Assembly (NCBI GenBank): GCA_016841005.1
Contig: JAEORG010000264.1
Location: 1 to 34,899, forward strand
Length of the DNA stretch: 34,899 nt
Reading direction: 5' to 3'
Source of the DNA: Candidatus Thorarchaeota archaeon
Lineage (GTDB): Archaea; Asgardarchaeota; Thorarchaeia; Thorarchaeales; Thorarchaeaceae
The translations under genes were made by a program, and so were the position numbers. Positions within the stretch are counted from its first letter, which is position 1, and the number at the start of each line of letters is the position of its first letter. Below are positions 15,711 through 17,537 of the stretch, in pieces. Below the pieces are notes generated by a model, which worked only from the letters and a program-made list of their open reading frames with translations, was not told where the DNA came from and did not search any database.

Positions 15711-17537
15711 TTGAATAATACAACAACTAAGAGAACGATAGCTATCTCTCTAGTTGCCGTTTTCTTGATGATGGCTGTGTCTCCTGCTTTTGCTCAGGCA
15801 CAGACCACTGTAGGACATTTCAAGACTGGCCCATTCGTGGATAAAATTGTCTTTGATGTCATTACACAAGAAGACCAGCAAGTCATTGCACTGCAAGATA
15901 GTGAGATTGATCTTATCGACCAACAACTTGATCCTACTTATCTGGAAACTCTTCAAGAAGCTGATAATATCGAGATTGCGAATATATTGAGAAATGGATA
16001 TGGATATGTAACAATTAACTGTGCAAAGTATCCATTCAATATAACCGCATTTCGAAGAGCACTTGCATTTGCTACAGATAAGGAAGCAATATCCGATGAT
16101 GTCTGGGACGGATTATCTCAGCCACTCGATAGTATGGTTCCTGCTACAAATCCCTTCTCAATTGAAGGTCAACTACCCTATACTTACTATGAGGCAAATA
16201 TTGCACTCGGAAATCAGATGCTAGATGATGCAGGATTTCTAGATATAGATGAGGACGGATTTAGAGAAGCTCCCAATGGACAAGACTTTGACGTCCTTGT
16301 TGAATGCGCCCAATCATCCAACATCGCCATCGAAGTTGGTGTTGTGATTGCAGATGCTCTCACAGCATTGCATGTTGATGCAACTTCCATTCCAACAGAC
16401 TTCTACGAGTATCTCAATAGGCTTTACTTGCACGGAGACTATGACATTGTCTTCCTCGGTGGAGGGTTCAGCAGCTTTGATGTTGATTGGATTGCCTATG
16501 AGTTTTGGTCCGAATATGCTGATGAACCATATTGGAACTTCCCGAACTTCCAGAATGCGTCTTACGATTCCTGGCGAGATCAACTGCTTCATGCTACCGA
16601 ATATGAAGATGTTCTCGAAGCAGCTCAAGAGATGCAGAAGATTTGGGTCTATGAAAGTCCTATGATCATCTGTTATGAGAATCTGGTGTTGTCAGCTTAC
16701 AGAACCGACCGTTTTGATGGTTGGATTAACTCTGTTGTTGATGGCGTTCCAGGCTTTTGGACTAATATCAAAGCTCATCTAAAGGATGAACTAGGAGGAC
16801 CCTTTGGAGGTACACTTCGCTGGAGTAACTCCTTGGATATTGACACGTTCAACTGGATGGCCAGCACATCAGCATATGCAAACAATGTCAATCAAATGAT
16901 GTGGGATAGTCTCATTATCGTTGCTCCAGATGGTACTGATGTTAATTGGTTAGCTGAGTCTTACACGACAGAAACACACACGGACAATCCTAGTGTGCCT
17001 GATGGTCATACAAGATTTACCTTCCAAATGATTCAAAATGCCACTTGGACTGATGGAATGCCATTGACTGCTGAGGATGCAGCTTTTACGCTCAACTATC
17101 TAAAAGAGGCTCCTGGAAACCAATACGGGTCTGATCTCACTGACTTAGTTGCAGCATATGCACCAACAACTTACACTCTAGTTGTTGAGTTCGATACAGA
17201 ATCATTCTGGCACTTACATACAGTTGCATACAAACCAATAATTCCCAAACATGTGTTTGAGGAAATAGGTGCGGCGAATTGGAACCTCTGGAATCCTGAT
17301 CCACCAAATGAGGCGATGGTCACCTCTGGTCCATTCAATGTGTCTGAGTATGTTGCAGGTGAATTCACTGAACTGACCTACAATCCTAACTACTTCTTTG
17401 GTCCCGATAGAACAACTAGTCCAACTACACCTACTGGAAGTACTGGTCCTGACTTTACACTTGCTATCGTTGCAGGTGCAGTTGGGGCTGCAGTAGTCAT
17501 TCTTGTTGGTGGATTTGTTCTAATGCGTCAGAGATAG
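15711..17537 (+). CDS. Oligopeptide-type ABC solute-binding protein (SBP_bac_5), apparently circularly permuted
   Basis: A 608-residue extracytoplasmic protein: signal peptide (RTIAISLVAVFLMMAVSPAF, cut near AQAQ), a large SBP family 5 body, a Thr/Pro/Gly linker near 568-581, and a C-terminal membrane anchor (FTLAIVAGAVGAAVVILVGG). The body order is unusual. Residues 33-360 look like the usual C-terminal half: FVDKIVFDVITQEDQQVIAL, FRRALAFATDKEAI near 114, AYRTDRFDGW near 330. Residues 365-567 look like the usual N-terminal half: GGTLRW, WDSLIIVAPDGTDVNWLAES, TWTDGMPLTAEDAAFTLNYL, PIIPKHVFEE, TSGPFNVSEY, YNPNYF. The start is TTG, the only candidate before the signal peptide; a GGAG is 11 bases away. 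No permease or ATPase genes are adjacent. Confidence 0.88.
   Translation: MNNTTTKRTIAISLVAVFLMMAVSPAFAQAQTTVGHFKTGPFVDKIVFDVITQEDQQVIALQDSEIDLIDQQLDPTYLETLQEADNIEIANILRNGYGYVTINCAKYPFNITAFRRALAFATDKEAISDDVWDGLSQPLDSMVPATNPFSIEGQLPYTYYEANIALGNQMLDDAGFLDIDEDGFREAPNGQDFDVLVECAQSSNIAIEVGVVIADALTALHVDATSIPTDFYEYLNRLYLHGDYDIVFLGGGFSSFDVDWIAYEFWSEYADEPYWNFPNFQNASYDSWRDQLLHATEYEDVLEAAQEMQKIWVYESPMIICYENLVLSAYRTDRFDGWINSVVDGVPGFWTNIKAHLKDELGGPFGGTLRWSNSLDIDTFNWMASTSAYANNVNQMMWDSLIIVAPDGTDVNWLAESYTTETHTDNPSVPDGHTRFTFQMIQNATWTDGMPLTAEDAAFTLNYLKEAPGNQYGSDLTDLVAAYAPTTYTLVVEFDTESFWHLHTVAYKPIIPKHVFEEIGAANWNLWNPDPPNEAMVTSGPFNVSEYVAGEFTELTYNPNYFFGPDRTTSPTTPTGSTGPDFTLAIVAGAVGAAVVILVGGFVLMRQR

Follow-up and report, generated by a model that had tools for sequence, protein, structure and literature searches.

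A probably membrane-tethered family 5 solute-binding protein of a Thorarchaeote, in which the two halves have changed places, and permuted relatives in other Asgard archaea

Does the open reading frame at 15711..17537 of the window, by which we mean the whole stretch of 34,899 nucleotides of Thorarchaeote DNA that was analysed, encode an ordinary solute-binding protein (SBP) of family 5, or one whose two halves have exchanged their places along the chain? The question comes from a sequence-only reading of this DNA, which noticed an unusual order of family 5 motifs and explained it by a circular permutation, with the old termini joined and new ones opened at the natural junction that follows the YNPNYW-type motif. 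The frame is present in the ORF list, and its translation (P0001) bears all of the motifs in the order thus claimed: DKIVF (residues 44-48), TDKEAI (122-127) and YRTDRFDGW (330-338) in the first half; GGTLRW (366-371), WLAES (413-417), DGMPLTAED (448-456), PIIPKH (509-514), SGPF (539-542) and YNPNYF (557-562) in the second half, with a hydrophobic segment (579-607) downstream of YNPNYF. The parts of the gene are given below, where A (as far as NPDYW), B (as far as the AGY helix) and C (the rest) are segments of the ordinary protein, as defined by profiles built from 91 proteins of a third search (best 120 of 1919 proteins); these 91 proteins are all in the ABC order and the organism-named ones are bacterial.

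15711..17537, + strand: whole open reading frame, permuted SBP_bac_5 protein of 608 amino acids with a TTG start; the orthologue P0002 is 96% identical and of equal length
15711..15797, + strand: predicted signal peptide, residues about 1-29 (hydrophobic segment 8-30; cleavage site placed by eye)
15810..16787, + strand: the part that comes last in ordinary family members (segments B and C), residues 34-359
16788..16805, + strand: new linker bridging the former C- and N-termini, residues 360-365, after the last aligned residue of the C-half (359) and before GGTLRW
16806..17414, + strand: the part that comes first in ordinary family members (segment A), residues 366-568, with YNPNYF and six further residues at its end (Pfam 3-141, E 5e-21; 5isu 68-203 aligned with residues 429-565)
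17415..17444, + strand: short linker rich in Pro, Thr, Ser and Gly, residues 569-578 (from the sequence; pLDDT below 50 at 570-581)
17445..17531, + strand: C-terminal membrane anchor, residues 579-607 (hydrophobic segment; model helix 583-606)

The following lines of evidence support the circular permutation of one family 5 protein. First, SBP_bac_5 (PF00496) was the sole Pfam family matched by P0001 at E values up to 1, and the whole protein matched it in two stretches (E 1.9e-51, 175.8 bits; gathering cut-off 32.4 bits), the best of which aligns residues 41-269 with profile positions 146-364. When the halves were scanned alone, residues 32-363 matched the C-terminal part of the profile (145-364; E 3.9e-31, 108.9 bits) and residues 364-568 its N-terminal part (3-141; 75.7 bits), each above the gathering cut-off. 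The break is located at the junction where the sequence-only reading had put it, and the single collinear full-length match on which that reading would have fallen was returned neither by the whole-protein nor by the half-by-half Pfam scans. Second, phmmer found both halves, in swapped order, within the same PDB chains, for example 7ebm (query 113-357 aligned with 270-522, and query 427-564 with 59-190), and the first half of P0001 runs to the last residue (520) of 1xoc. Third, P0001 is related in the same manner to a conventional Asgard SBP (locus L159), BLASTP aligning residues 376-574 with 43-230 and residues 41-340 with 230-524. P0001 therefore contains one copy of each half, with their order exchanged, the former termini connected and the new termini at a single break. 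Fourth, the order is retained in relatives, as described below.

The AlphaFold2 model of P0001 (88-row alignment; pLDDT 90.0, pTM 0.82) gave no sign of two separate complete domains, the other outcome that would have spoken against a permutation, and the new junction was predicted with block means of pLDDT of 94 (residues 351-360) and 93 (361-370). Using VIA-align, model residues 34-358 were superposed on DppA (1dpp) from residue 202 to its last residue, 507, i.e., on its last 306 residues, and the 50 entries listed were all of the family 5 type by title or family. The superposition on a DppA-type fold proposed by the sequence-only reading was obtained for the first half, and essentially for that half only: the VIA-align ranges are confined to it, a few running on to residues 395, 412 or 414, and the listed Foldseek rows align about 260-340 of 608 columns. 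Structure searches that keep chain order see about half of a permuted protein. With only a few residues joining the halves, the sequence is also compatible with an exchange between molecules, in which the C-half of one molecule would pair with the N-half of the next one to form dimers or filaments at the cell surface, and the model itself was computed for a single molecule. We regard such swapping as very improbable, as the model is a compact monomer with a confidently placed junction, and the permuted bacterial protein TpMglB-2 was found to be monomeric (PMC4990184).

The order of P0001, for which the sequence-only reading had proposed to search related archaeal genomes, is widespread in the relatives. 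In a first search, of which the best 120 of 997 proteins were taken, the C-half precedes the N-half in all 121 proteins (P0001 included), the N-half being reported in two pieces in one of them. Adding 76 proteins from a second search that started from more distant relatives gave a set of 197, P0001 included, of which 192 have the order of P0001. The other five (P0193-P0197) are remote and of conventional order, the single organism-named one being bacterial; P0194 was scored N-C-N, its extra N match being weak (9.3 bits) and overlapping the C-half. The source names among the permuted proteins are Thorarchaeota, Hodarchaeota/Hodarchaeales, Hermodarchaeota, Kariarchaeaceae, Heimdallarchaeota and Promethearchaeota, and the source annotations call them ordinary substrate-binding or hypothetical proteins. 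At the DNA level, 107 loci, which overlap in part, contain 137 SBP-like ORFs, of which 126 are permuted, the remainder being nine single halves and two conventional-order matches. The alignment was matched at E 0.001 or better by 118 of 195 genomes of the phylum, 44 of them at E <1e-100 (counted from the table), and in 16 of the 74 weaker-matching genomes that were searched again the best-match locus is permuted in 12 and conventional in four. Permuted and conventional SBPs occur together in four genomes (G002, G003, G127 and G177).

A mis-assembly, or two adjoining genes read as one, would also place the halves in an unusual order. Since the order is conserved across relatives, chance or assembly error is excluded, and we give this explanation practically no weight: P0001 is one open frame with hydrophobic segments at both ends, and its order recurs on very long contigs (3.16 Mb in G127, 4.94 Mb in G177). 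A real case of adjoining copies was recognised as such, namely the Rhizobium plasmid CP087973.1 (L228:2494-5593, H15). This candidate for a permuted bacterial SBP, which matched in one piece and in the order of P0001, was rejected, as it consists of two conventional copies in tandem, the first copy and part of the second lying in one open frame that is followed by a frame change; PLSDB lists no gene there. It came from plasmid searches that gave 558 and 3313 records with a match, four of which were opened, and the three others are of conventional order. No permuted family 5 SBP from outside the Asgard archaea was present among the best 120 of 997, the 76 of 76 and the best 120 of 1919 proteins of the three protein searches.

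Three further observations concern individual genes. A Thorarchaeote gene of the P0001 type (hereafter type 1; JAFGAR010000121.1) is interrupted by an in-frame TGA located precisely in the linker that joins the halves (L072:10081-10083), which splits it into the two old halves and may be a sequencing error, a mark of a pseudogene or the sign of a two-chain protein. Permuted SBP genes adjoin each other in pairs or threes at L166, L167, L177, L215, L216 and L226, with an identical order within each group where all segments were found. Two very divergent SBP_bac_5 genes of G177 (L161:10651-12855 and L178) also have Pfam matches with the C-terminal part first.

Besides type 1, cut after YNPNYW, we found genes cut after the AGY helix (type 2) or before the RRA helix (type 3), as well as fused copies:

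L162:3271-5046, P0198-P0226, L214-L217, L221-L223 and L226: second breakpoint, order C-A-B, in Hodarchaeales/Heimdallarchaeota and other genomes of the phylum
L224:2756-4915 (G182:C401): type 3, order B'CAB', one gene, which starts, and the SBP part of which ends, just before the RRA helix
L219:1423-4389 and L220:1488-6941: fused ABCABC, by segment profiles; L219 is cut by the contig end
L212:3693-6806: fused ABCA, then a B-like stretch, the remaining residues being too few for another C (parts masked; second B read by eye, last C taken as absent from this length)
L213:3-3089: fused CABC, beginning at the contig start

The CAB order is that of 27 of the 29 closest relatives, among the matches listed, of a G177 protein, itself included (P0198-P0226), the other two reading AB and CA; the eight organism-named ones come from Hodarchaeales, Hodarchaeota or Heimdallarchaeota. 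P0198 and the bacterial protein P0229 align in swapped order, with identities of 42% for A-B and 52% for C. More distant type-2 genes occur in G051 and G107. The 11 longer matched ORFs of G051 all stop at profile positions 279-300, so that the end of the profile is not reached in conventional order by any of them, seven of them with a C segment upstream and an eighth with one recognised through its match to L162, and no conventional-order match was found among the G051 matches, which lie on one 3.33-Mb contig. Nine permuted proteins were checked for hydrophobic segments: all nine have one in front and eight have one at the end, the type-2 score at the end being three of four (none called in L221). 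The four fused genes, L212, L213, L219 and L220, are each one open frame, and none has a called hydrophobic segment separating its copies.

These orders were also examined by scoring a bacterial conventional-order profile against rotated sequences. Type 2 L162 gained clearly when rotated at the place expected for it (372 to 599 bits), as did type 3 (90 to 135 bits), with smaller gains for L214 (106 to 131 bits) and L109 (21 to 53 bits), and two conventional controls scored 131 to 134 and 124 to 124 bits. P0001 showed a mild preference for the rotated form (73 to 84 bits), which we attribute to its distance from the bacterial proteins.

How often, and from what, did such proteins arise? An SBP tree was built from sequences put in canonical order, with 450 canonical sequences cut to 90 representatives and 36 of 484 sequences with a segment match (including the conventional L121, L122 and L123) left out for missing segments. 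Type 1 (45 representatives) forms one side of a single branch (SH-aLRT 99), and L119 and L159 are among the conventional rows nearest to it. The 15 type-2 rows are distributed over three places, with several long branches, the starred branches forcing two origins only; a single type-2 clade was rejected by the AU test (p 0.00065), a test that was run after the tree had been seen and that involves these long branches. We thus count at least four permutation events, firmly one for type 1, at least two for type 2, and one for type 3 that depends on a single gene. For the lineage of P0001, the best reading is that the permutation arose once, either before the Thorarchaeal and the Heimdall/Hodarchaeal copies separated or early in that split.

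In the OppB tree of the permeases, the OppBs encoded beside type-1 genes form one group together with three that lack an assigned SBP, and the permeases of L171, L173 and L170, which have conventional SBPs, branch next to it. The SBPs of L170-L173 have the top conventional scores against the permuted C-half profile (129-134 bits; next, 72). Type 1 requires three label changes on this tree, not one, with long branches flagged by the tool and with L171 and L173 labelled 'none' despite conventional SBPs 1.6 and 3.2 kb away. The grouping is what one would expect of an SBP that became permuted within a transporter lineage already in place, and the simplest reading is that this lineage stayed unchanged while its binding protein was re-cut.

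The tandem-duplicated intermediates for which the sequence-only reading proposed to search do exist in relatives as fused ABCABC genes, and none was seen on the lineage of P0001. The fused copies, including the form without the last segment, are the states predicted by a route of duplication, fusion and trimming. Because those found lie off the type-1 branch of the SBP tree, this route only suggests itself for P0001 by extension. Taking together the three or more cut places, at least one of them used repeatedly, and the persistence of fused copies, we think it likely that circular permutation has a natural hot spot in the family 5 SBPs of Asgard archaea.

Two features that the sequence-only reading had added as oddities turned out to be of another kind. 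The C-terminal anchor is present and ordinary, a C-terminal hydrophobic segment being found as well in the three conventional-order Asgard SBPs that were checked (L159, L170 and L168). Permease genes are indeed missing from the window, in which 35 ORFs besides the SBP were scanned, and this absence is local. Among 77 relative loci of public genomes, 18 have an OppB/OppC permease on the same strand within 1.5 kb, and 59 do not, partly because many contigs are short; a general loss of permeases was thus rejected. At L006 (and at L138, which is the same place) homologues of OppC, OppB and OppC (PF12911, PF00528) are followed by the permuted gene, with two oligo_HPY ATPases upstream on the opposite strand, and similar clusters, with parts missing or rearranged in some, occur at seven more places (L139, L145, L146, L149, L152, L157 and L160). 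P0001, which has no such co-encoded partners within the window, is a stand-alone copy, the surroundings of which are partly conserved in L001 and L002.

The two OppC permeases of L006 (L006:3637-5199 and L006:7242-8813; 520 and 523 amino acids) have about 275 residues between their OppC_N and permease domains, where no Pfam family matched, and the permuted gene is adjoined by a frame for a 292-amino-acid protein (L006:10975-11853) that matches Presenilin weakly (E 3.2e-4) and does not reach the cut-off. The type-1 paralogues P0079, P0104 and P0113 are extended at the C-terminus by a stretch with Ig/PKD-like matches, which pass the Pfam cut-off in P0113 only (PF22352, E 5.8e-12), and L175 has long open frames of 1906 (L175:3-5720) and 1260 amino acids.

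Could such proteins be surface receptors or adhesins, which would act independently of permeases and use the SBP fold solely for binding? The window and the 59 loci without a nearby permease, the stalk domains of the paralogues and the long frames of L175 are in keeping with this possibility. We nevertheless consider it unlikely, as close full-length relatives lie directly in opp-type operons in several genomes, and several SBPs are known to serve one importer in bacteria, as do DppA1-A5 with DppBCDF in Pseudomonas (PMC4206461).

From the order of the halves, its conservation, the operon linkage of the relatives and the predicted structure, we conclude that P0001 is very probably a membrane-tethered SBP of the DppA/OppA kind (cluster C, family 5), permuted after YNPNYW and belonging to an Opp/Dpp-type importer. 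We infer its ligand, delivery, permease sharing and origin from these data, as follows. The chain would consist of the signal peptide, the old C-half, a short linker spanning the old termini, the old N-half and the anchor, and is predicted to fold into the usual two-lobed protein. Judging from the transporter type, its ligands, most likely oligopeptides, would be bound in the cleft between the lobes and handed to an Opp/Dpp-type ABC importer; as a copy located away from permease genes, P0001 probably serves an importer encoded elsewhere in the genome. The permutation most likely occurred through tandem duplication, fusion and trimming of both ends. In the Escherichia coli importer, DppA caps DppB and DppC, and the scoop motif of DppB enters the inter-lobe cleft (PMC12136057). 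As the new C-terminus of P0001 is the loop after YNPNYW, the permutation would change the point at which the tether leaves the body of the protein, and the usual handover to the importer would otherwise be kept.

Among ABC binding proteins, structural cluster B provides a known case of natural permutation. TpMglB-2 (Tp0684) and its relatives form the naturally permuted 'Type Ic / Cluster Bc' ligand-binding proteins, and the authors who described TpMglB-2 suggested that permutation may be an adaptation to anchoring (PMC4990184). Similarly to P0001, TpMglB-2 is a membrane-tethered binding protein of an ABC importer, the natural permutation of which is conserved in a clade; unlike P0001, it is a bacterial protein of cluster B that binds glucose and has a different breakpoint (PMC4990184). 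With its Pfam and VIA-align matches of the family 5 type, P0001 does not have the cluster B (MglB-like) fold, and TpMglB-2 is a precedent for the idea, not a relative of the present case. For family 5 we found no such permutation reported: neither a permuted family 5 SBP nor permuted Asgard SBPs appeared in the literature searched, which comprised a minority of the subscription papers and no bioRxiv preprints, as judged by titles and the beginnings of abstracts. As regards the proposed adaptation, anchoring alone would not be a sufficient reason for the permutation, because three conventional Asgard SBPs also have the C-terminal hydrophobic segment.

Circular permutation belongs to the few processes that change the order of a chain and nevertheless preserve the shape of its fold, and, to our knowledge, natural series that show the before, the between and the after of a permutation are rare. 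Here, one family in one phylum presents conventional proteins, fused tandem copies, an apparently part-trimmed duplicate and three or more permuted forms, some of them sharing a genome, thereby making both the duplication-fusion-trimming route and the tether-adaptation proposal made for TpMglB-2 directly testable. Compared with the SBP_bac_5/cluster C proteins (DppA, OppA, AppA and NikA), P0001 has the order of its halves swapped and its new termini in the loop after YNPNYW. The conventional Asgard SBPs (L119/L170, L159 and L168) belong to the same phylum and have hydrophobic segments at both ends, but retain the A-B-C order, whereas the type-2 Asgard SBPs (P0198-P0226, L162, L214-L217 and L221) share with P0001 the family, the phylum and a permuted order, but lie outside the type-1 clade.
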